Assembly (NCBI RefSeq): GCF_024808665.1 | Contig: NZ_JANUBZ010000013.1 | Span: forward strand, 1-64,000 | Length of the DNA: 64,000 nt | Reading direction: 5' to 3' | From: Mucilaginibacter empetricola | GTDB lineage: Bacteria > Bacteroidota > Bacteroidia > Sphingobacteriales > Sphingobacteriaceae | In this document: piece after piece, positions 1,860 to 17,710 of the stretch | How positions within the stretch are numbered: position 1 is the stretch's first letter | Layout: every line of letters starts with the position of its first letter | The notes under the pieces: generated by a model | The model's input: only the letters and a program-made list of their open reading frames with translations | Told to the model about the DNA's origin: nothing | Database searches by the model: none | Translations under genes and position numbers: made by a program

Positions 1860-3179
1860 TTAAGGGAATTTAACTCCTCTATAACTTGCCACATTTGCTA
1901 ATGGGATATTTGATCCGTATTTGCCGTTTATGGCTTTAATAAATTCGTTAGCTACTATTGCATATCCTCTTGGCGTTAAGTGTACGCCATCAAGAGAAAA
2001 CAATCCACCACTAATGTAATTTGAATTTAAATTCAAACCGTCAATAACTAAGCCATTTTGCTTGATATTATCTAAGAATGTATATGCGTCAAATACTGCT
2101 AAACCATTAGCCGCAGCTATAGATGTAATAGTACTGTTAAATGAAAGTACATGTTGTTGCGTTAAGGCAACTTCGTTTGCATCTAAAACATATTGATTAT
2201 CAATCGGCGTGTATGGTGTTAAGCCGTATGGTAATTGGCCGTACGGGGTTGTAACCGGTTGACCTATCATGCTTGTAGGGAAGGTTAAAACAATTAAATC
2301 TTGAGCGGTAGCCAATCTTGGTGCATAAGTAGTACCAGACACTAATGCATTAATGTAAAGACCCTGAACAGCAGGGTTTAATTTTTGTACACCAGCCAAT
2401 ATGGCATTAACGGTTACCGTATTAAAATATGGTATTGAGGTTACATCTGGAATAGTTGCAACTACGCCTTTTGCACCATTTGCCGTTAAGCGACTGATAG
2501 ATAAAGCGTATAATTGTGCAAATGTGGTTTCGTCGGTCAATACGTCGCCGGCACCGCCAGATGTAGCATATAAAAGAGCATCATTATTACCCAACCAGTC
2601 TGAAAAGAAAGTGAACGGTTTTGCGGTTATAAAATCCAGGTAGTCTGTTGTGTTATTGGGAGCATCGTTAGGTAATAAACGTTCAAAATAGCCATTTAAA
2701 TCTCCGTAAGGAGCATAGGTAATATTAAGAAGTTTAATTCCGGGTACACCATAGTTTTCAATGTCGCCGGTATATTTGGTGTATAAAGTTACGTTTCCAA
2801 AACCGGGAACAGGAAGAATGCCTCTTATCGCCAAATCAGTTGTAACCGGCGTAGTAATAGGCGTGCCATCTGCATTAAAACCGGTTAGTTGCAAATAGCC
2901 GGAGCCATTTGCCTGTGCTGCAGTAAATAATGGCTGATTAAAGGCTCCACCACCTACAGACTGCATTTGGTTGGCCATAATTGAAGGATACGAATTAAGT
3001 TGTCCATCCAGGTAAAGTCCACCATCGGCATAGCCTGCTGTTAAGGAGTTTCCTACCGCTATGAATCGCGAAAAATTTGCCGAGCCATGGGTAAGCGGCG
3101 CGGTTTTAACTTCGGGTTTGCAGGCTGCGAAGAGAAATAAGCCTGCAATTATATATATATGTCTTTTTAGAAATTTCAT
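1860..3179 (-). CDS. SGNH/GDSL esterase-lipase, lipoprotein
   Basis: Predicted exported ester hydrolase of 439 residues. The N-terminus is a lipoprotein signal with FAAC (Cys20). The GDSL block appears as GNSLTAG with the nucleophile Ser45 and Asn in place of Asp. WLGNND matches block III (GxND), and LDGVHLTP near the end holds the Asp397/His400 pair. The gene lies 18 bases after a FadL-type porin in the same leftward unit, whose promoter region carries one of the two 42-bp AraC-linked elements. The likely job is releasing fatty acids from esters outside the inner membrane so that the porin can import them. The family is much larger than typical TesA esterases, and its real substrate is unknown. 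Confidence 0.82.
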   Translation of the reverse strand: MKFLKRHIYIIAGLFLFAACKPEVKTAPLTHGSANFSRFIAVGNSLTAGYADGGLYLDGQLNSYPSIMANQMQSVGGGAFNQPLFTAAQANGSGYLQLTGFNADGTPITTPVTTDLAIRGILPVPGFGNVTLYTKYTGDIENYGVPGIKLLNITYAPYGDLNGYFERLLPNDAPNNTTDYLDFITAKPFTFFSDWLGNNDALLYATSGGAGDVLTDETTFAQLYALSISRLTANGAKGVVATIPDVTSIPYFNTVTVNAILAGVQKLNPAVQGLYINALVSGTTYAPRLATAQDLIVLTFPTSMIGQPVTTPYGQLPYGLTPYTPIDNQYVLDANEVALTQQHVLSFNSTITSIAAANGLAVFDAYTFLDNIKQNGLVIDGLNLNSNYISGGLFSLDGVHLTPRGYAIVANEFIKAINGKYGSNIPLANVASYRGVKFP

Positions 3180-3197
3180 CTGCTTAAGTATTAAATT

Positions 3198-4421
3198 TTA
3201 CCAGTGATAAGAAAGTGAGATACCAGGAATATAAACATTTGTATCATAAGTGCCCGACAACTGATATTGAATATTAGTTTGAGTGCGGCTTAACAAATGC
3301 TCATATTCAAATGACGCATCAAGGTCAAAATGTTTAGTCAGCATATAACCAAAGCCACCGGTAAAGTACATTCTGTTAGCATCTGGTGCTTCCGGTGTAA
3401 CATAACCATCCAACACAGCTGTAGTTGCGAAACCTCCGCCAAAGCGCCATGCAGTTCTGGGAGATGACTTGTATTGTGCACCTGCTCTGAATGTGAAGGC
3501 ATCCTGATAATCGCGGGGCGAAATGGAGTTCTGTAAATCGGGTGTAGTAGTCTTATAATCAAACTCTAAGGTTTTATAACTACTCCAGCTTGTAATATTC
3601 ACGTCCAGTGCTAATGTCCATTTTGAAGTAGGATAAAAGCCTATACCTACAGAGTTAACAGCGGGTAATGGAATAGTTGATGAGAAAGTGTTAGGTTGAG
3701 GAAAAGCACTTTGAAGCGACGCCGGAACAGAAAATATAGCATTGCCATTGTTGATAGTGGTAGAAACGCCGCTACGGTGGGTAATACCTACAGTAAAGTT
3801 AGCTTCTGTTTTAAAATAAATACCTGCGTTCCAGCCATAGCCGTGTCCGGTGCCTTTTAGTTCGGCTTGCCCATCCTGACCTGCGCTGTTTGAAAGTGGT
3901 ATTGCTTGGGTAAGGTCAACACTGCCTCTGTTATACACAAAACCACCACCTATGCTTACAAAATCAGCCAATTTAATACTAATGGTAGGTTGAAAATAAA
4001 TAGCTTTTAAATCAAGGCTCTCCAATACATATTTTCCCTGCCAATTATTTCCCCAATCGGTTAAACCGCCATAAGGTGTATAAATGCCCAATCCAAATTT
4101 CCACCAGGATGCTTTTGGGCCCCACACGCCATAAAAAGTAAATGGAGGGGCAATTTTATTAGCAGTGTGATATTGAATATCAGTACCAGATGGGTTAAAA
4201 ACCGACTGAAATACTAACGGGCTGATTCCAGCCTGAACATAATTTTCGGGAAGCATAGCAACTGCGCCCGGGTTAAAAAATACTGAAGCACCATCTGTTG
4301 CAAGACCGGTACCAGTATGGCCCATACCAATTTGCTTTTCACCTTCAAGATTAACCTGGAAGCCTTGCGAAAATGCACATACTGGCAATGCCAACCATAG
4401 TAGGAGTAATAGTTTTCTCAT
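3198..4421 (-). CDS. OmpP1/FadL family outer-membrane fatty-acid transporter
   Basis: Predicted long-chain fatty-acid porin of 407 residues. A signal peptide (MRKLLLLLWLALPVCAFSQG) precedes GFQVNLEGEKQIGMGHTGTG and ASVFFNPGAVAML, the N-terminal hatch region with the FadL-type NPA/NPG turn. The remainder is rich in alternating aromatic strands and ends in SLSYHW with a terminal aromatic, as barrels do. First gene of a two-gene leftward operon with a secreted esterase. It runs divergently from an AraC regulator and the beta-oxidation genes. A -33/-7-like promoter (4490-4519 on the minus strand) and a 42-bp element lie directly upstream. The family assignment is good; the exact substrate is inferred from context. 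Confidence 0.87.
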   Translation of the reverse strand: MRKLLLLLWLALPVCAFSQGFQVNLEGEKQIGMGHTGTGLATDGASVFFNPGAVAMLPENYVQAGISPLVFQSVFNPSGTDIQYHTANKIAPPFTFYGVWGPKASWWKFGLGIYTPYGGLTDWGNNWQGKYVLESLDLKAIYFQPTISIKLADFVSIGGGFVYNRGSVDLTQAIPLSNSAGQDGQAELKGTGHGYGWNAGIYFKTEANFTVGITHRSGVSTTINNGNAIFSVPASLQSAFPQPNTFSSTIPLPAVNSVGIGFYPTSKWTLALDVNITSWSSYKTLEFDYKTTTPDLQNSISPRDYQDAFTFRAGAQYKSSPRTAWRFGGGFATTAVLDGYVTPEAPDANRMYFTGGFGYMLTKHFDLDASFEYEHLLSRTQTNIQYQLSGTYDTNVYIPGISLSYHW

Positions 4422-4489
4422 AAAATAATAATTGGTTTATAATATTAACAGCCTGGTGTATTAGGATACACTACATAACTATCAAAGTA

Positions 4490-4519
4490 TAAAAGTAGTT
4501 TGGTTTGAAATGAAAAAAA
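4490..4519 (-). promoter_or_regulatory. Putative promoter of the fadL-esterase operon
   Basis: On the minus strand TTTT (4519-4516), 18 bases, then TACTTTTA (4497-4490) resembles the Bacteroidota pattern TTTG-N19-TAnnTTTG. The T-run is also the end of the 42-bp element, so a protein bound there would touch the -33 region. The same arrangement is found in front of the acyl-CoA dehydrogenase gene. Confidence 0.5.
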
Positions 4520-4555
4520 GGGCTATAATGCGGAGATATTAGTCAAAAAGTCGGA
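4514..4555 (-). promoter_or_regulatory. 42-bp AraC-linked element, copy 1 (fadL side)
   Basis: Matches 5618-5659 in inverted orientation at 40 of 42 positions (differing only at the two bases 4525-4526). Read towards fadL it begins TCCGACTTTTTGAC, has a second TCCG 21 bases after the first, and ends in a T-run at the promoter. The spacing of two helical turns between half-sites is what AraC-type proteins use. It probably binds the regulator encoded at 4664-5551. It also lies 108 bases before the araC start, so autoregulation is possible. Confidence 0.75.
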
Positions 4556-4663
4556 TAATATATATTATAAGCAATAATGTTAATTTGAAGATAAAAAGTG
4601 ATGGTTTCAATTTTTAAAAAATCGCTTAAATAAATTCGGCAAAAAATTATATATTGTAGGGCG

Positions 4664-5551
4664 ATGAATAGAAAAATAGGGCAATTAAGCCTCTCAAAAT
4701 TTGCTTATCTGTATGCTGATAAGTTGGCCGGGGCAGACTTTTTTGTAGCTGATGAAAAGCAATTATTAAGCCTAAGCGAATATCCTTACCGATCAGACGG
4801 TTATATAGTTGGTATATGTACACGGGGTACGGCGCAGGTTGAGGTTAATCTGCAGGTTTATGAGGCCAGGCCTGATGCTATGTTGTTGGCAACCCCTTTC
4901 CACGTTTTAAGGATTTATAACAGTAGCGAAGATTTTTTATGCAGATTCATTGTTTTCAGCAAAGCATTTTTGACTGAAAATAGCGTAAATAGTCATTTTT
5001 TAGAATCGTTCAGTTATTTTAAAAGCACCTCATTGCCGGTAATATATTTGGATAGTGCCGATGCTAAAATGATTTTGGATATCTATTTATTGATACAGCA
5101 AAAGCTGGAGAGGGAAGGTCATCCTTATCATGTTGAAATATCAAGAAGTATTTTAATAACCCTGTTATATGAAGTACAGGCCGCTTATGAAAAGCAACAT
5201 TCAATAGTAAAAGGTAAACAGACCCGCAAACAGGAGCTGAATATGCTTTTTCAGGATATGGTTTTTCAGCATTATAAAGAGCATCGCAGTGTGCAATATT
5301 ATGCTGATGCTTTATTCGTATCGCCCAAACATCTCACTGAAACTATAAAGGAAGTTACAGGCAGAACAGCGGGGGAGTGGATTGATGATGCAGTGGTATT
5401 AGAAGCCAAGGTGTTATTAAGAAATCATGATATCAGTATTGCCCGCGTGGCCGAGGGTATACACTTCCCGGATCAATCTTCTTTTGGGAAATATTTTAAG
5501 AAACACGCCGGTATGTCGCCGTCTGATTACAGGACGGTTTCTGCCAATTAG
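4664..5551 (+). CDS. AraC family transcriptional regulator
   Basis: A 295-residue DNA-binding regulator. The C-terminal ~95 residues form the two helix-turn-helix motifs of the family: YYADALFVSPKHLTETIKEVTGRTAGEWI, then ISIARVAEGIHFPDQSSFGKYFKKHAGMSPSDYR. The N-terminal ~180 residues look like a cupin-type sensing domain (RGTAQVEVNLQVYEARPDAMLLATP). It sits between a leftward lipase/FadL operon and the rightward beta-oxidation operon. Near-identical 42-bp elements lie on both sides of it, each orientated towards one operon. The plain reading is a regulator of fatty-acid use that responds to a fatty acid or acyl-CoA; the ligand is unknown. The geometry favours activation. Confidence 0.9.
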   Translation: MNRKIGQLSLSKFAYLYADKLAGADFFVADEKQLLSLSEYPYRSDGYIVGICTRGTAQVEVNLQVYEARPDAMLLATPFHVLRIYNSSEDFLCRFIVFSKAFLTENSVNSHFLESFSYFKSTSLPVIYLDSADAKMILDIYLLIQQKLEREGHPYHVEISRSILITLLYEVQAAYEKQHSIVKGKQTRKQELNMLFQDMVFQHYKEHRSVQYYADALFVSPKHLTETIKEVTGRTAGEWIDDAVVLEAKVLLRNHDISIARVAEGIHFPDQSSFGKYFKKHAGMSPSDYRTVSAN

Positions 5552-5570
5552 TATACTTCCAGGTACTTCT

Positions 5571-5601
5571 TATAGCAATGGGTTTTAAACCCGTTGCTAT
5601 A
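5571..5601 (+). repeat. Palindromic hairpin downstream of araC
   Basis: Two 15-base arms (TATAGCAATGGGTTT and AAACCCGTTGCTATA) pair fully in RNA with one G-U, around a single central T. There is no T-run behind it, so termination is uncertain. The core GGGTTTTAAACCC is shared with the palindrome at 30624-30652. Confidence 0.65.
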
Positions 5602-5617
5602 ACGTGAAAATGCTCTT

Positions 5618-5659
5618 TCCGACTTTTTGACTAATATCTCCGCATTGCAGCCCTTTTTT
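5618..5659 (+). promoter_or_regulatory. 42-bp AraC-linked element, copy 2 (beta-oxidation side)
   Basis: Inverted copy of 4514-4555 with 40/42 identity. TCCG occurs at 5618 and again at 5639, 21 bases apart. The element ends in a T-run at 5654-5659 that serves as a poor -33 box. Orientation relative to transcription is the same as for copy 1, so both operons present the same face to the regulator. Confidence 0.75.
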
Positions 5660-5684
5660 CGGCTTGCAAAGGCATCTAATTTTA
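5654..5684 (+). promoter_or_regulatory. Putative promoter of the beta-oxidation operon
   Basis: TTTT (5654-5657), 19 bases, TAATTTTA (5677-5684), close to TTTG-N19-TAnnTTTG but imperfect in both boxes, as expected for a promoter that needs an activator. The leader to the first gene would be roughly 145 bases. Confidence 0.5.
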
Positions 5685-5834
5685 CCCTGATTATAAAACT
5701 TAAAATTAAGCGGCCTATCTGAACAGGTTTGGCTTAAAAATGACCAAAAATAAATTGCTGCTACTATAACGGATTATGTGTGGCTGCGTTTATTAAGTAT
5801 AAAACCAAAAGATCAACATATTTAATTATTTATT

Positions 5835-7631
5835 ATGAATACCACAGAATCTGTAAAAGCCATAAAAGGGGGTGAATTCCTGATAAGGGAAACAGCTGCT
5901 GAAAGTATCTTCATTCCCGAAGAATGGAACGAAGAACAGTTGATGATAGCCGAAACCTGTACAAATTTTTTAGCCCAAAACGTTACGCCTAACCTAAATC
6001 GTATTGACGAGCAGGAGGAAGGGCTGATGGCTCATTTAATGGAAGAAGCGGGTAATCTTGGTTTGTTGGGTATCTCCGTTCCGGAAGAGTACGGTGGTTT
6101 TGGTAAAGACTTTAAAACAGCAATGCTGGTTACCGAAAAATTGGGTGCCGGGCACTCATTTTCTGTGGCTTTTTCGGCTCATACAGGGATAGGTACCTTG
6201 CCTATACTTTATTATGGTAATGATGCTCAAAAGCAAAAATATATTCCAAAACTAGCAAGTGGCGAATGGAAAGGCGCATACTGCCTTACCGAGCCGGGAG
6301 CCGGATCGGATGCAAACTCGGGAAAGGCAAGGGCAAAATTATCTGCAGACGGTAAATATTACCTGATCACCGGTCAGAAAATGTGGATCACCAATGCCGG
6401 TTTTGCCGATATATTCACTGTTTTTGCCAAGATAGATAATGATGAAAACCTGAGTGCTTTTATTGTTGAGAAAGATTTTGAAGGACTATCGTTAAATACC
6501 GAAGAACATAAAATGGGTATTAAAGGAAGCTCAACCCGTCAGGTGTTTTTTAATGATTGTAAAGTGCCGGTAGAAAATCTGCTTTCTGAACGTCAGAATG
6601 GATTCAAGATAGCTGTAAATATTTTGAACCTGGGCCGTATTAAGTTAGGCGGCGGCACGGTAGGGGCCAGCAAAGATGTTATTTCGTTGGCTGTAAAATA
6701 TGCGAATGAACGTGAACAATTTGGCCGACCAATTTCCAAATACGGAGCTATTCGTTATAAATTGGCTCAACAAGCTATCCGCACCTATGCTTCAGAGGCT
6801 GCAATATATCGCGCCAGCCAAAATATGGAAGAAGCGACCGATATGCTGGTAGAATCGGGCATGGATTCAATTAAAGCAAAGCTTAAAGGAACAGAACAAT
6901 ATGCAATTGAGGCAGCAATTATTAAAGTACACGCTTCTGAAACCTTAGACTATGTGGTTGATGAAGGCGTGCAGATTTATGGCGGTATGGGTTTCAGCGC
7001 CGAAGCGCCGATGGATAGAGCTTATCGCGATTCGAGGATCAATCGCATTTTTGAAGGAACCAATGAGATAAACCGTATGCTGACCGTTGATATGATGTTA
7101 AAGCGCGCCATGAAGGGCGAGCTTGATTTAATGGGTCCCGCACAAAAAGTGGCTGGCGAACTGATGAGTATTCCTGATTTTAATGCAGGCGAAGAAGATG
7201 GTTTGTTCACAAAGGAGAAAAAATATATAGCAGGGTTTAAAAAAGCAGTCTTAATGGTTGCCGGTGGCGCTGTTCAAAAATTGATGGCCCAGTTGGGTAA
7301 AGAACAGGAAGTGTTGATGAACCTGGCAGATATGCTGATTGAACTTTATGTGAGCGAATCGTTACAGCTAAGAGTTGAAAAATTAGTTGGTATAAAAGGC
7401 GAAGAAGCAACTAAAGAGCAACTGGATATTATGCGGGTATATATCAGCGAAGCAGCTGAACGCATTTTAAAATCAGGAAAAGAGGCATTAAACTCATTTG
7501 CCGAGGGCGATGAACTAAGAATGATGTTGATGGGATTAAGACGCTTTACTAAAACCGAAGATTTTAACACTACCCAGGCTCGTAGAAATATTGCTGCTAA
7601 ATTGATTGCCGAAAATAAATATTGTTTTTAA
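5835..7631 (+). CDS. Acyl-CoA dehydrogenase
   Basis: FAD enzyme that introduces the trans-2 double bond into acyl-CoA and passes electrons to ETF, the first step of beta-oxidation. At 598 residues it is longer than the usual ~380. The extra ~170 C-terminal residues resemble the very-long-chain/ACAD9 type, which suggests long-chain substrates. Visible signatures are YCLTEPGAGSDANSG (flavin/substrate loop), KMWITNAGFADIFTVFAK, and YGGMGFSAEAPMDRAYRD followed by RIFEGTNEINR. Glu407 in FEGT is at the position of the catalytic base of medium-chain enzymes. It is the first gene of the rightward run, behind the second 42-bp element, with the two ETF subunits next. Confidence 0.92.
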   Translation: MNTTESVKAIKGGEFLIRETAAESIFIPEEWNEEQLMIAETCTNFLAQNVTPNLNRIDEQEEGLMAHLMEEAGNLGLLGISVPEEYGGFGKDFKTAMLVTEKLGAGHSFSVAFSAHTGIGTLPILYYGNDAQKQKYIPKLASGEWKGAYCLTEPGAGSDANSGKARAKLSADGKYYLITGQKMWITNAGFADIFTVFAKIDNDENLSAFIVEKDFEGLSLNTEEHKMGIKGSSTRQVFFNDCKVPVENLLSERQNGFKIAVNILNLGRIKLGGGTVGASKDVISLAVKYANEREQFGRPISKYGAIRYKLAQQAIRTYASEAAIYRASQNMEEATDMLVESGMDSIKAKLKGTEQYAIEAAIIKVHASETLDYVVDEGVQIYGGMGFSAEAPMDRAYRDSRINRIFEGTNEINRMLTVDMMLKRAMKGELDLMGPAQKVAGELMSIPDFNAGEEDGLFTKEKKYIAGFKKAVLMVAGGAVQKLMAQLGKEQEVLMNLADMLIELYVSESLQLRVEKLVGIKGEEATKEQLDIMRVYISEAAERILKSGKEALNSFAEGDELRMMLMGLRRFTKTEDFNTTQARRNIAAKLIAENKYCF

Positions 7632-7652
7632 ACAGCTATTAATACTGACCTC

Positions 7653-7684
7653 GAATTATCCCGGCTTTTTTGCCGGGGTAATTC
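7653..7684 (+). terminator. Strong hairpin between acyl-CoA dehydrogenase and etfB
   Basis: A 13-bp stem with one G-U (GAATTATCCCGGC with GCCGGGGTAATTC) around a six-T loop. A weak pyrimidine tract (TTCTTT) follows. It may act as a partial terminator that lowers expression of the genes behind it, or as a stabilising 3' end. No promoter is obvious between it and etfB. Confidence 0.55.
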
Positions 7685-7707
7685 TTCTTTGCTAAATAAA
7701 ATACCTT

Positions 7708-8451
7708 ATGAAAATATTAGTGTGTATAAGCCAGGTACCGGATACCAGTACTAAAATTATACTAAAAGATAACAATACCGCCATCAGTAGCGATGGTGTA
7801 ACTTACATCATAAATCCTTATGATGAATGGTATGCGTTGATCCGCGCGTTGGAACTAAAAGAAACAGGCGTGGCTACTGACGTCCATTTAATAACAGTAG
7901 GAAAAGCTGATGTAGAACCTATCATCAGAAAAGGACTGGCATTAGGCGGCGATGAAGCTATCCGTATTGATGCTGCACCCAATGACGCTTATGAAACTGC
8001 CAATTATATTGCAGAATATGCCAAAAGTGTGGGTTATGATTTGATACTATGTGGTAAAGAATCTATCGATTACAATAACGGGACCACTGGTGTGATGATT
8101 GCTGAATTACTGGATGTGGATTATATAGGCTTTGCTACCAGTATCCAGATTGAGGGTAATATAGCTACCGTTAACCGTGAAATTGAGGGTGGTGAAGAAA
8201 CAGATACCTGTAATTTGCCTGTAGTAATTGCATGCCAAAAAGGTGTCGCCGAGGCTCGCATACCCAATATGCGGGGAATAATGGCCGCACGTACCCGTCC
8301 ACTAAAAGTTGTTACACCTACGGCAGTAGCCCCGGTTGCGTCAATTTTGTCGTATGAAATGCCTCCGGCTAAGGCGGGCATTAAACTGGTTGATCCGGAT
8401 AATATGGATGAACTGGTTGAATTGCTTCATTCAGAAGCAAAAGTTATTTAA
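7708..8451 (+). CDS. etfB: Electron transfer flavoprotein, beta subunit
   Basis: AMP-binding subunit of ETF, which accepts electrons from acyl-CoA dehydrogenase and delivers them to the quinone pool through ETF-quinone oxidoreductase. The 247-residue protein begins MKILVCISQVPDTSTKI as in the family. It has CGKESIDYNNGTTGVMIAELLDVDYIGFATSI, and the ETF-beta signature region VIACQKGVAEARIPNMRGIMAARTRPL. Length is normal. It is followed by etfA after 26 bases. Placement beside the dehydrogenase argues for a beta-oxidation ETF and not a nitrogen-fixation type. Confidence 0.93.
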   Translation: MKILVCISQVPDTSTKIILKDNNTAISSDGVTYIINPYDEWYALIRALELKETGVATDVHLITVGKADVEPIIRKGLALGGDEAIRIDAAPNDAYETANYIAEYAKSVGYDLILCGKESIDYNNGTTGVMIAELLDVDYIGFATSIQIEGNIATVNREIEGGEETDTCNLPVVIACQKGVAEARIPNMRGIMAARTRPLKVVTPTAVAPVASILSYEMPPAKAGIKLVDPDNMDELVELLHSEAKVI

Positions 8452-8477
8452 TCTATCCTAAAAAATAATTACGAAAG

Positions 8478-9455
8478 ATGTCTGTATTAGTATTGGTAGA
8501 ACATACCGAAGGAATTATAAAAAAGAAAAGTTTTGAAGCAGTTCAATATGCTTCACATATAGCCAAACAAAACGGCGCCACGGTAACTGCTGTTGTTTTG
8601 GGTAATGCACAGAGCTCAGAAATAGAAGGTTTAGGTGCATACGGTGCTCAAAAAGTATTGTATGTTGCCGATGCCCGTTTAGATGAATTGCATGCCCGAG
8701 CCTATGCGAAAGCATTAATTGTTGCAGCTCAAAAAGAAGATAGTAAAATTATCATTGCATTGCATGATATTAATGGAAGAGCTGTCGCTCCACGCGTTGC
8801 CGTTAAATTAAAAGCAGGGTTGGTGGCAGGCGCATTGTCGTATCCTGATACTGAAAAGGGTTTTGTAATAAAAAAGGCCGTTTTCTCAGGTAAAGCTTTT
8901 GCATTTGTAAATATTTTGAGTGATGCGAAAGTAATCACCTTAATGCCAAACTCATTTCAATTAAATAAAGCCGAAGGAAAAGCGACTGTTGAAAAGCTGG
9001 ATGTTAGTTTTGATGAAAAAGACTTCGGCATAAAAGTAAAACAAGTTAATAAAGTAAGCGGGGAAGTATCGCTGGCTGATGCTGAACTGGTTGTCTCTGG
9101 CGGTCGTGGTATGAAAGGCCCTGAAAACTGGGGACTGATTGAAGATTTAGCCAAGGAATTGGGTGCTGCAACAGCATGCTCGCGCCCGGTTGCCGATTCA
9201 CACTGGCGTCCGCATCATGAGCATGTTGGTCAAACAGGAGGAACTATTCGACCTAATTTATATATCGCCGTTGGTATATCAGGGGCCATTCAGCATTTGG
9301 CAGGGGTTAATGGATCAAAAACCATCGTTGTAATCAATAAAGATCCAGAAGCGCCATTTTTTAAGGCAGCTAATTACGGGGTAGTTGGCGATGCGATGGA
9401 AGTTCTTCCTAAATTAACTGCTGCGGTAAAAAAGTACAAGGAAACTCATAAATAA
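8478..9455 (+). CDS. etfA: Electron transfer flavoprotein, alpha subunit
   Basis: FAD-carrying subunit that pairs with EtfB. The 325-residue protein has the C-terminal FAD domain with GGRGMKGPENW, then CSRPVADSHWRPHHEHVGQTG, and the ETF-alpha signature LYIAVGISGAIQHLAGVNGSKTIVVINKDPEAPFF. The terminal part reads NYGVVGDAMEVLPKL, as expected. Eight bases separate it from a thioesterase, so the genes are very probably on one transcript. Confidence 0.94.
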   Translation: MSVLVLVEHTEGIIKKKSFEAVQYASHIAKQNGATVTAVVLGNAQSSEIEGLGAYGAQKVLYVADARLDELHARAYAKALIVAAQKEDSKIIIALHDINGRAVAPRVAVKLKAGLVAGALSYPDTEKGFVIKKAVFSGKAFAFVNILSDAKVITLMPNSFQLNKAEGKATVEKLDVSFDEKDFGIKVKQVNKVSGEVSLADAELVVSGGRGMKGPENWGLIEDLAKELGAATACSRPVADSHWRPHHEHVGQTGGTIRPNLYIAVGISGAIQHLAGVNGSKTIVVINKDPEAPFFKAANYGVVGDAMEVLPKLTAAVKKYKETHK

Positions 9456-9463
9456 CTCGGGTT

Positions 9464-9907
9464 ATGAACGTTTATTACGAAGGACAGGTTTTGTGGTCGC
9501 AAATTGATGCTAACCAGCATTTGCGCCACTCGGCTTATGCTGATTTTGCCGCACAAGCAAGGTTAAATATGCTGCAGCAATTAGGTTTAAAACCGGCTTT
9601 ATTGCTTGAGCAAAAAATAGGGCCGGTATTGTTTAGAGAAGAGCTTTTTTACCTGCACGAAGTGATTTTAAATGATACCATTAAGATGACTTGCGAGCTT
9701 TCAAAAGCCCGTGCAGATGGTTCCCGTTGGTCGATAAAGCACGAAATGTACAGGAGCGATGGCGTTAAGGCAGCTATTATTAATGTGGATGGTGCCTGGA
9801 TTGATATGGAGAAACGCAAATTATGCCCGTTGCCTATGGATGTGAGCGAGCTTTTTATGAGAGCCAATAAAACCAGTGATTTTGTTGAAGATGTACCTAA
9901 AGTTTAA
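9464..9907 (+). CDS. Acyl-CoA thioesterase, hotdog fold (4HBT type)
   Basis: A 147-residue single-domain hotdog protein. The N-terminal QIDANQHLRHSAYADFAAQARL follows the YbgC/4-hydroxybenzoyl-CoA thioesterase pattern, in which the Asp (residue 15 here) is catalytic. KHEMYRSDGVKAAIINVDGAWID forms the later strands. It would release CoA from acyl-CoA, and in this operon may relieve CoA trapping when an intermediate stalls. The spacing to the neighbours (8 and 18 bases) indicates co-transcription. The substrate chain length cannot be read from sequence. Confidence 0.78.
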   Translation: MNVYYEGQVLWSQIDANQHLRHSAYADFAAQARLNMLQQLGLKPALLLEQKIGPVLFREELFYLHEVILNDTIKMTCELSKARADGSRWSIKHEMYRSDGVKAAIINVDGAWIDMEKRKLCPLPMDVSELFMRANKTSDFVEDVPKV

Positions 9908-9925
9908 CACATATACCTAATAATA

Positions 9926-10192
9926 ATGATTCAATTAAAAGATGTTTTTGAAGCGGCTGTAAAAGACAGTAAAGAACTGCCTTCGCGTCCGGATAATGAA
10001 ATATTACTGCAAATTTACAGTTTATATAAACAAGCAACCGAAGGCGATATTAACGCTGATAATCCGCCGGGAATGTTCGACTTTGTGGCCAAAGCCAAGT
10101 ATGATACCTGGTTAAAATTAAAGAGTGTTAGTGCCGAAGATGCGATGAGGCAATACATTAACCTGATTGCTGAGCTATCGGGAAACAAATAA
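9926..10192 (+). CDS. Acyl-CoA-binding protein
   Basis: An 88-residue protein with the full ACBP pattern: LPSRPDNEILLQIYSLYKQATEGD, NADNPPGMFDFVAKAKYDTWLKLKSVSAEDAMRQYINLI. The Tyr/Lys pair of 'YKQAT' and the KAKYDTW segment line the CoA pocket in known ACBPs. These proteins bind long-chain acyl-CoA in the cytosol and deliver it to enzymes. They are common in eukaryotes and much rarer in bacteria, so one inside a beta-oxidation operon is notable. It ends the first gene block; a 220-base gap follows before the bifunctional enzyme. Confidence 0.9.
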   Translation: MIQLKDVFEAAVKDSKELPSRPDNEILLQIYSLYKQATEGDINADNPPGMFDFVAKAKYDTWLKLKSVSAEDAMRQYINLIAELSGNK

Positions 10193-10412
10193 CAAAATAA
10201 AGTTCCGAAATATTGACAAATGTTTCCGTCATTTGGACCTTTATATAATCATCCTTAAAGGGATATTTGCTAATATAAACCAATACCAATTATTAAATCA
10301 TTTCGGGGCTAAACTGCTTTTTGTAAAGATGGCAGAATAAACAACAGGGCGTTAAATACTTAAGGCTTGTTTGCGGAATGAATATTACAACCATTTAAAA
10401 TAACGTATTTGC

Positions 10413-12794
10413 ATGGATGCCAAACGAATAATAAAAAAGGTAGCTGTACTGGGTTCAGGGGTAATGGGCAGTCGTATAGCCTGCCACTTTGCAAACATTG
10501 GGGTGCAGGTATTGCTATTGGATATTGTACCCAAAGATGCACCTGAAAACGATAAGAAGGTCAGGAATAAAATAGTGAATGATGCGTTGGATTTTGCTTT
10601 AAAATCAAACCCTTCGCCAATCTATCTCAAATCATTCGCAAAGCGCATCACAACGGGAAATTTTGATGATGATATGCCCAAAATTGCTGATTGCGATTGG
10701 GTAATAGAAGTGGTGGTCGAACGCCTCGACATCAAACAAAAAGTATTCGAAAATGTCGAGAAATTCCGTAAAGCGGGCACGCTCATCACCTCAAATACTT
10801 CAGGTATTCCTATTCATCTGATGGCAGAGGGTAGAAGCGACGACTTTAAAAAACATTTCTGCGGAAGCCACTTCTTTAATCCGCCACGCTATTTAAAACT
10901 GCTAGAGGTTATTCCAACAAAGGATACTTTGCCCGAGGTAACTAATTTCCTGATGGAATTTGGCGAGAAATTCCTCGGTAAAACCACTGTTTTGGCTAAA
11001 GATACACCGGCATTTATTGGTAACAGGGTAGGTGTGTTCAGTATAATGAGCGTGCTGAACTATGTGAGCAAAACGGGCATGACCGTAGAAGAAGTTGATA
11101 AGCTTACCGGACCAGTTATCGGTCACCCAAAATCAGCTACTTTCCGCACCAGTGATGTTGTTGGTTTAGATACTATGATCCATGTGGCTAACGGTCTTTA
11201 TGAAAACGCACCGAAAGACGAAGCCAGAGAAATATTTAAAATTCCTGATTTTGTAACCGGTATGGCCAAAAACAACTGGCTGGGCAGCAAAACCAACCAG
11301 GGTTTTTATAAAAAAGAAAAGGTTGATGGCGTAAACCAATTTTATGCGCTCGACTTAAAAACTTTGGAATATAAGCCATCACAAAAAGTAAAATTCCCAT
11401 CATTGGAGACCACTAAGGCGGTTGATAGTTTAAAAGATCGGCTTAAAACACTTTTTGCAGCAAAAGATAAAGCAGGTGATTTTTATCGTGCTACTTTTTA
11501 TGAATTATTTGCTTATGCCAGTAACCGCATACCCGAAATTGCTGATGAGTTTTACAAAATAGACGCTGCCATCAGTGCTGGTTTTGGCTGGGAAATGGGC
11601 CCTTTTGAAAAATGGGATGCTCTTGGCGCCGAAGAAACCTTGAAGGCAATGGAAACTGCCAGCAATAAACCTGCTCAATGGGTTTATGATATGCTTGCTT
11701 CCGGCGCAAAAAGTTTTTATAAGGTTGAAGGCGGCAAACGTTTGTATTATGATATTCCATCCAAAACCTACCAGATAATTCCGGGAACGGAGAGTTTTAT
11801 TTTGCTGGATAATATCCGCCCAACACATACCATATGGAAAAACAGCGGTACTACCATTACCGATATTGGCGATGGTATACTCAACCTGGAGTTTCATACC
11901 AAAATGAATACCATAGGTGGCGATGTGATAGAAGGTATCAACAAAGCCATAACGCTGGCCGAGAAGAATTATAAAGGCCTGGTAATATCAAACGAAGGAG
12001 CCAATTTTAGTGCAGGTGCCAATGTTGGGATGATATTTATGATGGCTGTTGAACAGGAGTTTGATGAGCTGAATATGGTGATCAAAGCTTTTCAAAATAC
12101 GATGATGCGCATCAGGTATTCATCTATTCCGGTGGTAGCCGCTCCGCATCAGATGGCATTAGGCGGCGGGTGTGAGTTATGCCTACATGCTGATAAGGTT
12201 GTTGCCCATGCCGAATTGTATATGGGTTTGGTTGAATTTGGCGTAGGCTTAATACCCGGCGGCGGCGGTACAAAAGAGTTTGCTTTAAGATTATCGGACG
12301 AATTGCAGGATGGCGATATTGAGCTTAATAACTTCCGCGACAGGTTTTTAACCATTGGTCAGGCAAAAGTATCTACCTCGGCTTACGAGGCTTTTGAATT
12401 GGGCTATTTGAAAAAGGGTCGTGATGTAGTTGTTGTTTCTCAAAATAGGTTATTGGCCGAAGCTAAACAACAGTGCTTACAACTTGCTGATGAAGGCTAC
12501 GTACAACCTATACCGCGAATTGATATCAGGGTACTGGGCAAACAAGCTCTTGGCTTGGGTTATGTAGGCGCTAATACTATGTATAGCGGCAACTATATCA
12601 GCGAGCACGATGTGAAAATATCACAGAAATTGGCTTATGTAATCTCGGGCGGGGATTTATCACAACCATCCCTTGTAAGCGAAGAATATTTGCTGGGCTT
12701 GGAGCGTGACGCTTTTGTATCGCTGTGTATGGAAAAGAAAACCCTGGAAAGAATTCAATCCATTTTAACAGGCGGAAAAGTGCTGAGGAATTAA
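10413..12794 (+). CDS. 3-hydroxyacyl-CoA dehydrogenase / enoyl-CoA hydratase (FadN-like)
   Basis: Bifunctional 793-residue enzyme for the second and third steps of beta-oxidation. The NAD-binding dehydrogenase is N-terminal (VAVLGSGVMGSRIACHFA, GSGVMG at residues 14-19; GSHFFNPPRYLKLLEVIP). The crotonase/hydratase domain is C-terminal (FSAGANVGMIF, then GGGCELCLHADKVVAHAELYMGLVEFGVGLIPGGGG at about 584-616). This order is the reverse of E. coli FadB and agrees with Bacillus FadN, as does the length. Thiolase follows, as in fadNA. The 220-base upstream gap holds an imperfect inverted repeat (CAAATG at 10217 with CATTTG at 10230) but no promoter I would defend. Confidence 0.92.
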   Translation: MDAKRIIKKVAVLGSGVMGSRIACHFANIGVQVLLLDIVPKDAPENDKKVRNKIVNDALDFALKSNPSPIYLKSFAKRITTGNFDDDMPKIADCDWVIEVVVERLDIKQKVFENVEKFRKAGTLITSNTSGIPIHLMAEGRSDDFKKHFCGSHFFNPPRYLKLLEVIPTKDTLPEVTNFLMEFGEKFLGKTTVLAKDTPAFIGNRVGVFSIMSVLNYVSKTGMTVEEVDKLTGPVIGHPKSATFRTSDVVGLDTMIHVANGLYENAPKDEAREIFKIPDFVTGMAKNNWLGSKTNQGFYKKEKVDGVNQFYALDLKTLEYKPSQKVKFPSLETTKAVDSLKDRLKTLFAAKDKAGDFYRATFYELFAYASNRIPEIADEFYKIDAAISAGFGWEMGPFEKWDALGAEETLKAMETASNKPAQWVYDMLASGAKSFYKVEGGKRLYYDIPSKTYQIIPGTESFILLDNIRPTHTIWKNSGTTITDIGDGILNLEFHTKMNTIGGDVIEGINKAITLAEKNYKGLVISNEGANFSAGANVGMIFMMAVEQEFDELNMVIKAFQNTMMRIRYSSIPVVAAPHQMALGGGCELCLHADKVVAHAELYMGLVEFGVGLIPGGGGTKEFALRLSDELQDGDIELNNFRDRFLTIGQAKVSTSAYEAFELGYLKKGRDVVVVSQNRLLAEAKQQCLQLADEGYVQPIPRIDIRVLGKQALGLGYVGANTMYSGNYISEHDVKISQKLAYVISGGDLSQPSLVSEEYLLGLERDAFVSLCMEKKTLERIQSILTGGKVLRN

Positions 12795-12808
12795 TCGTTG
12801 ATGGGTTA

Positions 12809-12962: not shown

Positions 12963-12989
12963 CTACAGGTTCTCAAAAAAACATAAAAA

Positions 12990-14165
12990 ATGAACGCATA
13001 CATAGTGGCTGCAAGCCGGAGCGCTGTTGGAAAAGCAACAAGAGGGGGTTTAAGGTTTACACGACCTGATACCCTTGCTGCCGATGTTATTAAACACCTG
13101 GTTGCCTTGGTTCCTAATGTTGACAAGGAGCAAATTGATGATGTAATTGTTGGTAATGCAACTCCCGAGGCAGAACAAGGTTTAAATGTTGCCCGTTTAA
13201 TCTCATTAATTGCATTGGATACCGATAAAGTTCCTGGGATGACCGTAAATCGTTACTGCGCATCGGGGCTGGAAACTATTGCTATCGCGGCAGCAAAAAT
13301 ACATAGTGGTATTTCAGATTGTATTATAGCTGGAGGTGTTGAGAGCATGAGCTTGTTGCCAATGGGCGGCTGGCGCGTAGTACCCAATGCAGACGTTGCT
13401 TTGGCGCATCCCGACTATTACTGGGGTATGGGTCTCACCGCCGAAGCAGTTGCCAGTGAATATAAAGTAAGCAGGGAAGAACAGGATCAGTTTGCCTATA
13501 ACTCTCATCAAAAAGCTATAGCTGCTATTAAGGAAGGAAAGTTTAAAGACGAGATTGTTCCGGTTAATATCGTAGAAACTTATGTTGATGAAAGCGGCAA
13601 GAAGAAGAAACGTGAATTTAAGGTTGATACTGACGAGGGGCCTCGTGCCGATACATCATTGGACGCATTGGCAAAATTGAAGCCTGTATTTAATGCAAAA
13701 GGCGTTGTTACGGCGGGTAATTCATCCCAAACCAGTGATGGTGCTGCATTTGTAATGGTGGTGAGCGAAAAGTTTATGAAACAAAATAACCTTACACCCA
13801 TTGCCCGCATGGTAAATTATGCTGTTGCAGGCGTTCCGCCGCGTATTATGGGGATAGGTCCGCTAGTAGCTATTCCTAAGGTATTAAAACTGGCGGGCAT
13901 GAAACAACAGGATATTGACCTGATTGAATTAAATGAAGCATTTGCTTCTCAATCACTGGCTATTATAAAAGGATTGGAATTAAATCCGGATATTGTAAAT
14001 GTAAACGGAGGCGCTATAGCATTGGGGCATCCGCTGGGTTGTACGGGAGCAAAGCTTTCGGTGCAATTGTTTAACGAATTGAAGAGACGTGATAAAAAAT
14101 ATGGTATGGTTACCATGTGTGTAGGAACAGGGCAGGGAGCGGCAGGTATATTTGAATTGTTATAG
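12990..14165 (+). CDS. fadA: Acetyl-CoA C-acyltransferase (3-ketoacyl-CoA thiolase)
   Basis: Cleaves 3-ketoacyl-CoA to acetyl-CoA and a shortened acyl-CoA. Thiolase motifs are complete: NRYCASGLETIA with nucleophile Cys90, NGGAIALGHPLGCTGAK with His347, and MCVGTGQGAAGIFE with Cys377. Length 391 is typical. Context decides for the degradative role over biosynthetic acetoacetyl-CoA thiolase. It lies behind a 195-base repeat-containing gap that does not show a clear promoter, and is followed at 39 bases by an acyl-CoA ligase. Confidence 0.92.
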   Translation: MNAYIVAASRSAVGKATRGGLRFTRPDTLAADVIKHLVALVPNVDKEQIDDVIVGNATPEAEQGLNVARLISLIALDTDKVPGMTVNRYCASGLETIAIAAAKIHSGISDCIIAGGVESMSLLPMGGWRVVPNADVALAHPDYYWGMGLTAEAVASEYKVSREEQDQFAYNSHQKAIAAIKEGKFKDEIVPVNIVETYVDESGKKKKREFKVDTDEGPRADTSLDALAKLKPVFNAKGVVTAGNSSQTSDGAAFVMVVSEKFMKQNNLTPIARMVNYAVAGVPPRIMGIGPLVAIPKVLKLAGMKQQDIDLIELNEAFASQSLAIIKGLELNPDIVNVNGGAIALGHPLGCTGAKLSVQLFNELKRRDKKYGMVTMCVGTGQGAAGIFELL

Positions 14166-14204: not shown

Positions 14205-16019
14205 ATGGAAAAAGCAACAAGATTATTTGATTGCATGGCAGTTCAGGCTAGTGAACCCAGAACCGACTTATTAAATGCAAAAGTAAACGGAAGCTGGAAA
14301 GCTTACAGTACAACAGAAGTGCACGGTCTGGTTTATCAGCTAACCCAGGCACTGCTTGATTTAGGTATTTCCACAGGCGATGGTACAGTTGAAGGGCGTG
14401 ATAAAATAGGTTTAATAAGTGCTGGCAGGCCTGAGTGGGTAATTACTGATTTGGCCGTACAGCTTACCGGCGCAGTGCTGGTGCCATTATATCCCAATAC
14501 TAATACTAAAGAAATTGAGCAGATTTTGATTGAAGCTGATGTAAAATACCTGTTTGTAAGTACAAAAGAATTATTCGAAAAAGCAAAGCAAATACATGCC
14601 AATGTACCATCATTAAGAACCATTTTTTCTTTTGATGAACTGGATAATTGCCCTAACTGGACCGAACTGCTCAAGCCATTAAAGCCTGGCTATGAACAAA
14701 GAATAAATGATATCAGCAACCAAATTAAAAAGGACGACGTTACCACAATAATTTACACCTCAGGTACTACAGGAAGGCCAAAAGGAGTAATGCTTACGCA
14801 CGAAAATATTTTGAGTAACGTTACCGCATCAGGTGATATACTGGTGCAAATACCTATAAAAGAGAGACGTGCATTAAGCTTTTTGCCATTGAATCACATC
14901 TTCGAAAAAATGGTAACCTATATTTATCTTTTCTACGGCTTTTCGGTTTCTTATGCCGAAAATATGGATACGATAGGCCCTAATATGCGCGAGGTTAAAC
15001 CTTATCTGTTTACTGCGGTTCCGCGGGTGCTGGAGAAAGTTTTTGAACGAATAATGGTTGAGGGCCAGAAACTTACAGGTATAAAAAGAAAGATATTCTT
15101 CTGGGCTGTAAGTGTGGCCGATCAGTTTGAGATTGGCAAAAGTAGCCCGGGATATAAACTTAAATTGGCCATAGCCGATAAACTGGTATTTAGTAAATGG
15201 CGTGCTGCTGTCGGTGGAAATATAAAAGCCATCGTGGTGGGAAGTTCATCAACTCCGATCAGGCTCGAAAAAATATTTACAGCTGCCGATATGGTAGTGA
15301 TAGAAGGTTATGGTTTAACGGAAACCTCGCCGGTAATTGCGGTTAACCATTATGCCGAAAGCGGCAGGAAATTTGGCACGGTAGGGCCGCTGTTGGGCGG
15401 CGTGCAGGTGCAAATAGCCGAAGATGGCGAAATATTGTGTAAAGGGCCAAATGTTATGCCCGGCTATTATAAAAACCCTGAATTAACAGCCGAGGTATTG
15501 GCGGATGGCTGGTTCCATACCGGAGATATTGGTGTGTTGGATGAAGATAATTTCTTGAAAATAACCGATCGTAAAAAGGAAATATTCAAAACTTCGGGTG
15601 GCAAATATGTGGCTCCGTTACCTATTGAAAATAAGATGAAGGAAAACTACTTCATTGAACAAATGATGGTAGTTGGGTCAGAGCGGAAGTTTGCTGCCGC
15701 ATTGATAGTGCCATCATACACCAATCTGAAGCCGTGGTGCAAAAAGAATGATATTGAGTTTACTTCACACAAGGATCTTTTAAAAGATAAAAGGGTTATT
15801 GATATGTATCAATCTATTATCGATACCTATAATCCTGAATTTAACCACGTAGAGCAGGTAAAGAAAATTACTTTGCTGCCCGATGAGTGGTCGGTTGATA
15901 CCGGCGAGCTTACCCCAACAGGAAAAATGAAGCGTAAAATTATCACCGAAAAATACAAAATAGAGATCGACAGAATGTATGCTGGCGAAGTAAGTGAAAA
16001 CCCCGCCCTGGTAAATTAA
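14205..16019 (+). CDS. Long-chain fatty-acid--CoA ligase
   Basis: AMP-forming ligase that activates imported fatty acids with ATP and CoA. The 604-residue protein has the P-loop YTSGTTGRPKG (about 184-194), the YGLTETSP adenylate motif, GWFHTGDIG, and the hinge region ITDRKKEIFKTSGGKYVAP, ending with the catalytic Lys-bearing TPTGKMKRK. It is of the long, soluble FACL type seen widely in Bacteroidota. In this locus it receives fatty acids entering through the FadL-like porin. Its neighbours are thiolase upstream and an isomerase 10 bases downstream. Confidence 0.92.
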   Translation: MEKATRLFDCMAVQASEPRTDLLNAKVNGSWKAYSTTEVHGLVYQLTQALLDLGISTGDGTVEGRDKIGLISAGRPEWVITDLAVQLTGAVLVPLYPNTNTKEIEQILIEADVKYLFVSTKELFEKAKQIHANVPSLRTIFSFDELDNCPNWTELLKPLKPGYEQRINDISNQIKKDDVTTIIYTSGTTGRPKGVMLTHENILSNVTASGDILVQIPIKERRALSFLPLNHIFEKMVTYIYLFYGFSVSYAENMDTIGPNMREVKPYLFTAVPRVLEKVFERIMVEGQKLTGIKRKIFFWAVSVADQFEIGKSSPGYKLKLAIADKLVFSKWRAAVGGNIKAIVVGSSSTPIRLEKIFTAADMVVIEGYGLTETSPVIAVNHYAESGRKFGTVGPLLGGVQVQIAEDGEILCKGPNVMPGYYKNPELTAEVLADGWFHTGDIGVLDEDNFLKITDRKKEIFKTSGGKYVAPLPIENKMKENYFIEQMMVVGSERKFAAALIVPSYTNLKPWCKKNDIEFTSHKDLLKDKRVIDMYQSIIDTYNPEFNHVEQVKKITLLPDEWSVDTGELTPTGKMKRKIITEKYKIEIDRMYAGEVSENPALVN

Positions 16020-16029: not shown

Positions 16030-16809
16030 ATGGACACATTTCAATTGAAAATCAGGGATAGGTTAGCGATGATAGCGCTTGACAGAGGGCGTTCAAATCC
16101 TATTAATCATCAAATGGTTAAAGAACTAACCAGTTGTATCAGGAATTTAGATGCCGATGACACCAATGTAGGCGGATTACTGTTAACCGGCAAAGAAGGT
16201 TTTTTCTCTTCGGGTATTGATCTGATTGAAGCTTACGAATACGATGAAGCGCAAAGCCGTGAGTTTTGGGTTGACTTTTTAGAACTGCAAAAGGTATTGG
16301 CCTCTTTTAAAAAGCCTATGGTTGCTGCTATAAGCGGTCACAGTCCCGCAGGCGGGTGTGTTATGGCGATTTGCTGCGACTATAGGGTAATGGCCGAGGG
16401 CAAGTTTGTTATTGGCTTAAATGAAATTCCTGTGGGCATTATTGTGCCCGATGGTATTTTTGATTTATACGCTTTCTGGCTTGGCAAACGTAAGGCTTAT
16501 CAGTATTTGTTAGAGGGTAAATTGCTGAATGTTAATGAAGCGCTTGATGCCGGTTTAATAGATGAATTGAGCGCGGCTGACAGCCTGTTAAGCACGGCAG
16601 AAAAGAAGATAAGAACCTACATGCAATTTAGTGCCACCACCTGGAGCCAAAGTAAATTAAACCTGCGCAAAGAATTGATAACTAAGTTAAATGGTGATCA
16701 ATCCGACACTTTAAATAAAATGCTTAGTCAGTGGTGGGCTCCTGCAACCCGCAAAGGCCTGCAAATGATGGTGGAGAATTTAAAATCAAAAAGTACTACT
16801 GCAAAATAA
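16030..16809 (+). CDS. Enoyl-CoA isomerase of the crotonase family (ECI1-like)
   Basis: A 259-residue crotonase-fold protein. The segment SGHSPAGGCVMAICCDYRVMAEGKFVIGLNEIPVGIIVP closely follows mitochondrial delta3,delta2-enoyl-CoA isomerase (ECI1), including PAGGC and GLNE. Glu132 sits where ECI1 has its single catalytic Glu. Such isomerases shift cis/trans-3 double bonds to trans-2, so that unsaturated fatty acids can continue through beta-oxidation. Next to it, 7 bases on, is a DECR1-like reductase, the partner enzyme for polyunsaturated chains. A plain enoyl-CoA hydratase is the alternative, but only one of the two hydratase glutamates is apparent. Confidence 0.8.
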   Translation: MDTFQLKIRDRLAMIALDRGRSNPINHQMVKELTSCIRNLDADDTNVGGLLLTGKEGFFSSGIDLIEAYEYDEAQSREFWVDFLELQKVLASFKKPMVAAISGHSPAGGCVMAICCDYRVMAEGKFVIGLNEIPVGIIVPDGIFDLYAFWLGKRKAYQYLLEGKLLNVNEALDAGLIDELSAADSLLSTAEKKIRTYMQFSATTWSQSKLNLRKELITKLNGDQSDTLNKMLSQWWAPATRKGLQMMVENLKSKSTTAK

Positions 16810-16816: not shown

Positions 16817-17710
16817 ATGACTAATACCAACCCACAAAACCAGGCAATTACCGACGGAATGTTAAAAGATGATGCTTTAAAAGGCAAAACCATAGTAATT
16901 ACTGGCGGTGGTACGGGTTTGGGCCGCGCAATGGGTACTTATTTCCTAAAGCTAGGCGCCAATTTGGTAATTACCAGCAGAAAACTGGATGTGCTGAAAC
17001 AAACAGCTACCGAAATGGAAACCGAAACCGGCGGTAAGGTATTAGCCGTGGCCTGTGATGTAAGGAAGTATGAAGAAGTAGAAAGTATGTTGGAGCAGGC
17101 AGTTAGTGCTTTTGGAAGTGTTGATGTACTGGTAAACAATGCGGCGGGCAATTTTATTTCGCCAACAGAACGGCTTTCGGCCAATGCTTTTTCGGCTATA
17201 ATTGATATTGTGTTAAAAGGCTCGGTAAATTGCTCGTTGGCTTTGGGTAAATACTGGATAAATGAAAAACTACAAGGTAACATACTCAATATAGTAACTA
17301 CTTACGCGTTCACAGGGTCGGCTTATGTAGTTCCATCTGCTTGTGCCAAAGGTGGCGTACTGGCTTTAACCAGGTCGTTAGCCGCGGAGTGGGGGCGTCA
17401 TGGAATCAGATGTAATGCTATCGCTCCTGGCCCATTCCCAACCAAGGGAGCCTGGGAACGCCTGCTACCCGGTGATATGGGCAAAAAGTTCGATTTCAAA
17501 AACAGAGTTCCCCTTAAGCGCATGGGCGAACATCAGGAATTGGCTAATCTGGCGGCTTTCCTGGTATCAGGCTTCTCTGGTTATATTAATGGCGAGGTAA
17601 TTACTATCGACGGTGGTGAATGGATACAGGGTGCAGGTCAGTTTAATGCACTGGAAATGATCCCCGCCGAAATGTGGGATAGTATCGAAAAAGCTACCCG
17701 TTCTGCGTAG
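16817..17710 (+). CDS. 2,4-dienoyl-CoA reductase, SDR type (DECR1-like)
   Basis: NADPH-dependent short-chain reductase of 297 residues. TGGGTGLG (29-36) is the cofactor loop and VNNAAGNFISPTERLS (107-121) follows. IVTTYAFTGSAYVVPSACAKGG contains Tyr163 and Lys178, spaced by 15 as Tyr199/Lys214 are in human DECR1, an arrangement different from the usual SDR YxxxK. The stretch AEWGRHGIRCNAIAPGPFPTKGAWERL is typical of the DECR group. It would reduce 2,4-dienoyl-CoA from polyunsaturated fatty acids. It is the last gene of the rightward run. Confidence 0.87.
   Translation: MTNTNPQNQAITDGMLKDDALKGKTIVITGGGTGLGRAMGTYFLKLGANLVITSRKLDVLKQTATEMETETGGKVLAVACDVRKYEEVESMLEQAVSAFGSVDVLVNNAAGNFISPTERLSANAFSAIIDIVLKGSVNCSLALGKYWINEKLQGNILNIVTTYAFTGSAYVVPSACAKGGVLALTRSLAAEWGRHGIRCNAIAPGPFPTKGAWERLLPGDMGKKFDFKNRVPLKRMGEHQELANLAAFLVSGFSGYINGEVITIDGGEWIQGAGQFNALEMIPAEMWDSIEKATRSA

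Follow-up and report, generated by a model that had tools for sequence, protein, structure and literature searches.

What does a 42-base-pair (bp) sequence do when it stands in two inverted copies, one on either side of a regulator gene? The question is raised by a 64,000-nucleotide (nt) stretch of the Mucilaginibacter empetricola genome (contig NZ_JANUBZ010000013.1, positions 1 to 64,000; hereafter the window), in which the two copies flank the gene of an AraC-type regulator (araC) and face genes for the import and the oxidation of fatty acids. Comparison of this locus with its relatives indicates that the elements are, with high likelihood, class II operators through which a dedicated activator of the AraC type controls the uptake and β-oxidation of fatty acids. 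The resulting three-operator regulon is a well-supported prediction; the kind of system would be a familiar one, its membership and target new.

The 42-bp element and its predicted promoters

An inverted-repeat search of the window recovers two arms, site 1 at 4514-4555 (- strand) and site 2 at 5618-5659 (+ strand), each 42 nt long, 95% complementary and separated by 1062 nt. When the two intergenic regions are compared in inverted orientation without gaps, the best match scores 36, whereas 200 dinucleotide shuffles give at most 13. An earlier note on this DNA had described the arms as reverse complements at 40 of 42 positions, flanking a regulator gene and pointing at operons of import and oxidation; the search and the shuffles bear out the match, and the annotation bears out the setting, namely an AraC-type gene between fadL and acd-etfBA. 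The element alone is not a palindrome, and both mismatches between sites 1 and 2 fall in the distal half (CATTATAG and CATTGCAG). The note had counted two copies only, and here it fell short, as a relaxed-core scan of the genus reveals a third, diverged copy (site 3) at 10204-10245 (+ strand), upstream of fadB and a thiolase gene. Each of the three sites is oriented towards the operon that it precedes.

Matches to the core pattern number three in the window, against 0.01 expected. The full 39-bp motif at up to three mismatches likewise has three matches in the 5.83-Mb genome, all within the fad cluster, and none in the reversed control. No further copy at this threshold was found elsewhere in the genome, and the numerous copies away from fatty-acid genes against which the earlier note had cautioned did not appear there. 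Its suggested scan pattern, TCCGAC-N15-TCCGCA, fared less evenly: the two exact matches in the genome both lie at the araC locus, but at up to two mismatches the pattern sinks to background (246 matches, and 297 for the reversed control). The short motif alone is therefore uninformative. The recognisable unit is the 42-bp tandem site. No Rfam family matched positions 3000-13000 of the window at gathering scores.

The anatomy of the element was derived from 61 Mucilaginibacter loci (the window and 60 others), in which site 1 is found in 56, site 2 in 59 (two of these at three mismatches) and site 3 in 51. Each copy consists of two 21-bp half-sites in direct repeat, which in site 2 read TCCGACTTTTTGACTAATATC and TCCGCATTGCAGCCCTTTTTT. 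When self-offsets of 5 to 29 bp were compared, 21 bp was the best for the position frequency matrix of every site class, and the element thus has the tandem half-sites of about 21-bp period that mark AraC-type operators. A half-site is made up of a TCCG box followed, about one helical turn further on, by a GAC/CCT box. Columns that are invariant in all three classes (55, 57 and 51 sequences; one of the 56 site-1 copies, L126, at a contig end, and the two site-2 copies at three mismatches were omitted) are CCG at 2-4, T at 11, A at 13, C at 14, AA at 16-17, CCG at 23-25 and CCT at 35-37, those inside the search pattern being partly fixed by construction, and CCT and the promoter box forming no part of that pattern. 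The invariant columns form four boxes spaced 10 to 12 bp apart.

A promoter-like sequence lies at a fixed place beyond the element. TAnnTTT begins 37 or 38 nt past the second TCCG in 54 of 55 site-1 and 56 of 57 site-2 sequences, the offset at the fadL promoter being 37 in 54 of the 55 genus sites, and at site 3 TTTG occupies the columns of the -7 box in 50 of 51 sequences. In Flavobacterium psychrophilum the sigma-A -7 box has the consensus TAnnTTTG and spans -12 to -5 (PMC9723704). The predicted -7 boxes in the window are TACTTTTA for fadL (4490..4497, - strand), TAATTTTA for acd (5677..5684, + strand) and GATATTTG for fadB (10262..10269, + strand). With these putative boxes placed at -12 to -5, the second half-site would extend from about -50 to -30 and the first from about -71 to -51. 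In class II activation by AraC proteins the operator adjoins the -33/-35 region, and the sites here are predicted to adjoin or overlap this region at a fixed spacing from the promoter.

We infer that the AraC-type regulator uses the 42-bp element flanking its gene as its operator. Two monomers, each with two helix-turn-helix (HTH) motifs, would occupy one element on one face of the DNA. The operators would stand just upstream of the -7 box, with the second half-site over the -33 region, and because they abut the promoter in this manner a dimer bound there would most likely act on RNA polymerase directly, as an activator. Operator 1 would drive fadL and the GDSL-type esterase gene (uptake), operator 2 acd-etfBA with the thioesterase and acyl-CoA-binding protein genes, and operator 3 fadB, the thiolase gene and the genes that follow. 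Import and β-oxidation would be switched together by one regulator, probably upon the binding of a fatty acid or an acyl-CoA. A complete and compact regulon, including operators, promoters and targets, would thus be predictable from sequence alone.

Distribution in Mucilaginibacter and beyond

The genus sample comprised 149 Mucilaginibacter genomes, 77 of which have an AraC match at E ≤ 1e-40. An araC orthologue, defined by at least 70% identity, is present in 64 of them by reading of the match table; three of these (G099, G117 and G133) carry a cut-off araC and lie outside the 61 loci. Every one of the 64 genomes with the orthologue carries a site, and 59 carry two or more, whereas among the 85 genomes without it 13 have at least one and four at least two, which is no better than the reversed control. 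The assembly of one of these four, G103, is incomplete (86%); a site lies close to the start of a contig there, and the genome has a 90% fadB.

The position of the sites follows the operons. Where acd is relocated behind the thiolase gene, site 2 precedes etfB (nine loci, in one of which, L127, the stretch ends before acd) or the thioesterase gene (one locus), and the site thus appears to stay with the operon head when gene order shifts. The distance from araC to site 2 varies from 12 bp up to kilobases, and that from site 1 to fadL is constant at 100-118 bp. Site 1 is absent where fadL is not beside araC (L116, L125, L129 and L137, as well as L128, which starts at a contig end), and in three of those genomes fadL was located elsewhere with no site upstream. 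None of the 36 fetched stretches upstream of fadL genes that are not beside araC, from 49 such matches counted, carries a site; 28 are from genomes without the orthologue, one is from G133 (cut-off araC on another contig) and seven are from genomes with araC, the G108 stretch is just 394 bp long, and these fadL genes are possibly paralogues. Likewise, three stretches upstream of 69-70% fadB homologues have no site, and neither has a stretch in G136, which stops some 380 bp short of fadB on its upstream side and cannot decide the matter. The earlier note's proposal of a single regulator for both arms is supported by conservation, co-occurrence, the movement of sites with the operon head, promoter spacing and the absence of sites at the examined fadL genes away from this araC.

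There are exceptions. Site 2 is missing within three mismatches at L131, where similarity to the second half alone is left, and is weak at L108 and L132. Site 3 is missing from fadB at L083 and L108, and also at L080, L116, L129 and L137, which have no etfBA between acd and fadB; four loci that lack etfBA there keep the site (L084, L090, L095 and L107). At the other loci without site 3 (L089, L125, L126 and L127), fadB is not on the stretch. The gap between site 3 and fadB is 646-869 bp in 47 of 51 loci versus 184 bp in the window, and a DUF2147-type gene for which the window has no room stands in this gap at L081 (7857-8309, checked against Pfam), L092 (4146-4598) and L110 (6900-7352).

Outside the genus, a family sample of 399 genomes yielded two further loci with an araC orthologue. 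One (L218) has site 1 (one mismatch) and site 3, and no site 2 within three mismatches; the other (L219) has a site 1 with three mismatches, and its stretch ends behind araC. Two records titled Flavipsychrobacter stenotrophus and two titled Chitinophagaceae bacterium, which belong to another order, Chitinophagales, encode an araC of 69-76% identity, cut off in one of them. Behind it come the site, a TACATTTA box and fadB-thiolase-acd, so that here the site precedes a different operon head.

More distant AraC homologues (28-36% identity) were searched with the three-class profile. The top match lies near araC in 22 of 39 loci, compared with about 3.6 expected, some of these matches scoring below zero. 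TTTG, which the search profile does not include, stands at the exact expected -7 column in 16 of the 39 top matches and in one of 234 lower-ranked ones (background 0.0076 per position); the other 23 top matches, Pedobacter sites among these, lack it there. These comparisons suggest that the operator grammar is probably common to part of the wider AraC clade. Targets of unstudied Bacteroidota AraC genes could be predicted from the operator-promoter spacing that the present system shares with some distant AraC proteins.

Several individual loci of this search deserve mention. In Pedobacter (L195, L197, L200, L211 and L215), a related operator lies about 370-515 bp upstream of the araC homologue, before a divergent gene. 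Five of six Pedobacter sites score 29-41 bits and the sixth scores 4, and the one site checked by homology (L195) is upstream of a divergent serine palmitoyltransferase gene (E 2e-178); the operator is possibly part of an AraC-type switch of sphingolipid synthesis. In other Bacteroidota (L181, L182, L184, L187-L189, L193, L196, L198, L201 and L202), TTGACCAAT...GACCT-like sites with TTTG at fixed spacing are found 20-161 bp behind the araC homologue on the same strand. A metagenome-assembled genome of the Prevotellaceae (L212) has operator-like sites at 3450 and 5995 on the - strand (24.6 and 32.3 bits), both near an AraC homologue of 28% identity.

Whether the element is one case of a phylum-wide operator-promoter module is a matter on which the balance is about even. 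Such a module, serving a clade of one-component Bacteroidota AraC proteins, would combine tandem (T)CC-N-TTGACC-like half-sites with a -7 TTTG at a fixed place, and lipid metabolism would be its recurring target (β-oxidation here; serine palmitoyltransferase, and hence sphingolipid synthesis, in Pedobacter). If true, it would provide a general rule by which AraC regulons can be read across the Bacteroidota.

Age of the copies and competing explanations

The earlier note attributed the similarity of the two copies to strong selection or recent copying. Sites 1 and 2 keep different distal halves (CATTATAG and CATTGC) in most of the loci listed, and these two copies are thus old. Selection and copying both apply, in different parts of the element. 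Recent copying is not the main story, as both copies occur across the genus loci examined and their distal halves are separately conserved, although the proximal halves do change in concert. Over the proximal 25 columns the mean distance between the two sites is 0.83 within genomes versus 1.62 between genomes (52 loci), and among 26 representatives of less than 93% identity it is 1.27 versus 2.06; in neither case was any of 20,000 permutations as low, in a test that ignores phylogeny. No clear within-genome effect is seen for the distal halves (0.06 and 0.18 of permutations) or for site 3. Read on the araC tree, the data indicate at least five separate concerted changes, and site 2 alone changed in two groups (L120/L121/L123 and L084). 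The proximal concert would be accounted for either by gene conversion acting locally from one site to the other or by a shared pressure from the regulator. In one genome (G130, locus L011), the identity between the two sites extends over 54 nt, 27 nt of which are flank towards araC, and because of this identical flank conversion is favoured in that lineage, where it looks recent. Concerted change of two operators that face each other across a regulator gene represents a clean case of local operator co-evolution.

The concerted first halves and the long match in G130 are also what a mobile element or a recent duplication devoid of regulatory function might leave behind. This origin is nevertheless highly improbable. 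The genome holds no further copies at up to three mismatches, and both copies persist in the genus loci, each with a distal half of its own. The third copy, though diverged, is almost as widespread, and such an origin would leave the fixed spacing to the promoter unexplained. Equally improbable is a phase switch, in which recombination between the copies would flip araC. Inverted repeats of 42 bp do flank a single gene, and the identity between them resembles gene conversion, but the arms are short, araC and fadL are divergently oriented in every one of the 61 loci that has both, and no flipped araC was seen.

Two other explanations accept a regulatory role. The elements could be bound by another factor, such as an AraC paralogue or a global regulator, with the adjacent araC a bystander. 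In favour of this reading, a close fadB (at least 83% identity) is present in 64 genomes, 61 of which also have araC, so that genomes without araC mostly lack the fad cluster too, and co-occurrence cannot separate the regulator from a cluster with which it mostly travels. Moreover, weaker motifs of a related kind occur beside or near AraC paralogues in the genus. These motifs score 3-17 in five of six loci, however, compared with at least 41.8 for the sites; at the examined loci the sites either enclose araC or adjoin it, and the site accompanies the orthologue even in another order and before a different operon head. A bystander role is accordingly quite unlikely. The regulator could instead bind the elements to keep the three operons repressed, and be released by a fatty acid or acyl-CoA, following the logic of FadR and PsrA. 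GntR- and TetR-type regulators of fatty-acid degradation are typically repressors, and operators near -33 are also compatible with occlusion of the promoter. The regulators of this pathway named in PMC5343134 are of those two types. Operators that lie upstream of, or reach up to, -33 and do not cover the -7 box or the start would represent the usual layout of an activator, and repression is considered unlikely; activation by the flanking AraC-type protein remains the preferred explanation.

The regulator, its relatives and the genes of the cluster

The proposed activator of the three operons (4664..5551, + strand) is a protein of 295 amino acids that combines a cupin-like sensor domain with a double HTH. 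Its C-terminal DNA-binding domain matches HTH_18 (3.3e-20) and HTH_AraC (1.8e-10), both above gathering scores, AraC-type chains appear in the fold list of the structural comparison, and the N-terminal cupin-like sensor/dimerisation domain is of the AraC/RhaR type. Matches to the NCBIfam models for AraC (PRK10572), RhaR and HpaA fall under the curated cut-offs (e.g. 76.9 bits versus 208 for AraC), and the protein is therefore neither the arabinose regulator nor RhaR or HpaA. Assignment to the FadR, PsrA or FadP type was also rejected, as the protein is AraC-type and not of the GntR or TetR fold.

With tandem-site activators of the AraC family the system shares a double-HTH protein, direct repeats of 21-bp period and a regulator divergent from a target. 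The araI1-I2 sites of E. coli AraC have this tandem half-site layout. Pseudomonas CdhR is described with GGTCGC half-sites and a 15-bp spacer (PMC5806209), the same layout as TCCGAC-N15-TCCGCA, although CdhR is called class I (its site falls within -216 to -112 or overlaps -112) whereas the sites here abut the promoter. Unlike AraC and CdhR, the present system has three operators for three fatty-acid catabolism operons. The predicted motifs of Bacteroides hybrid two-component systems (HTCS) are direct repeats with an average of 21 bp between sites (PMC3878776), and HTCS proteins resemble the regulator in their Bacteroidota AraC-type DNA-binding domain. They differ in their periplasmic sensor and kinase domains and their role in polysaccharide use, whereas here a one-component protein stands beside fad genes.

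Coordinated control of the same pathway is exerted by FadR (GntR), PsrA and FadP (TetR), which belong to unrelated protein families (PMC5343134); the string 'arac' is absent from the main text of that article. In ToxT, an N-terminal pocket accommodates long-chain fatty acids (PMC9247172), and unsaturated ones inhibit the protein. ToxT and Rns have an AraC-type fold, and Rns with decanoic acid is among the fold-list chains for the regulator model, but both are virulence rather than catabolic regulators, and their whole-protein root-mean-square deviation from the model is 7.1-8.0. Pseudomonas SphR, presumably also of AraC type, is a sphingosine-responsive regulator of lipid-related genes with a different ligand and different targets. 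Among the best-ranked papers in open-access full text, a source that leaves subscription journals mostly uncovered, no regulator of fatty-acid breakdown was found described for the Bacteroidota, and the regulators of fatty-acid degradation found for Proteobacteria are GntR- and TetR-type.

The first operon is headed by fadL (3198..4421, - strand), which encodes an OmpP1/FadL/TodX outer-membrane transporter (PF03349, Toluene_X, 1.5e-49); a GDSL-type lipase/esterase gene (1860..3179, - strand; PF00657, 5e-8) follows 18 bp behind it, probably in the same operon. The remaining genes are all on the + strand. Operon 2 begins with the acyl-CoA dehydrogenase gene acd (5835..7631; NF058590 FadE, 5.6e-240) and continues with the electron transfer flavoprotein genes etfB (7708..8451; ETF domain, 3e-29, the name of the beta subunit coming from matches below cut-off) and etfA (alpha subunit, 8478..9455; ETF_alpha, 5e-34), a 4HBT-type acyl-CoA thioesterase gene (9464..9907; PF13279, 8e-20) and the acyl-CoA-binding protein gene (9926..10192; PF00887, 5.4e-29). 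Operon 3 is headed in this genome by the gene of a FadB-like 3-hydroxyacyl-CoA dehydrogenase/enoyl-CoA hydratase (10413..12794), 195 bp behind which lies the thiolase gene (12990..14165), a gap that makes a promoter of its own possible. Genes for an AMP-binding enzyme, probably an acyl-CoA synthetase (14205..16019), an enoyl-CoA hydratase/isomerase (16030..16809) and a short-chain dehydrogenase/reductase (16817..17710) follow, the last assigned to the operon by spacing alone.

Between araC and operator 2 lies a near-perfect hairpin, TTATAGCAATGGGTTT/AAACCCGTTGCTATAA, with 16-bp arms and a 1-nt gap (5570..5602), possibly a terminator of araC or an insulator; no second place in the genome matches it at up to three mismatches. 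The genome also contains a dispersed TCCGAAATCGACATTCCGACTTCCGAA-type repeat, unrelated to the operator, with 27 matches at up to three mismatches and none in the reversed control (for example, G000:C3:33685-33711 and C3:46650-46743).
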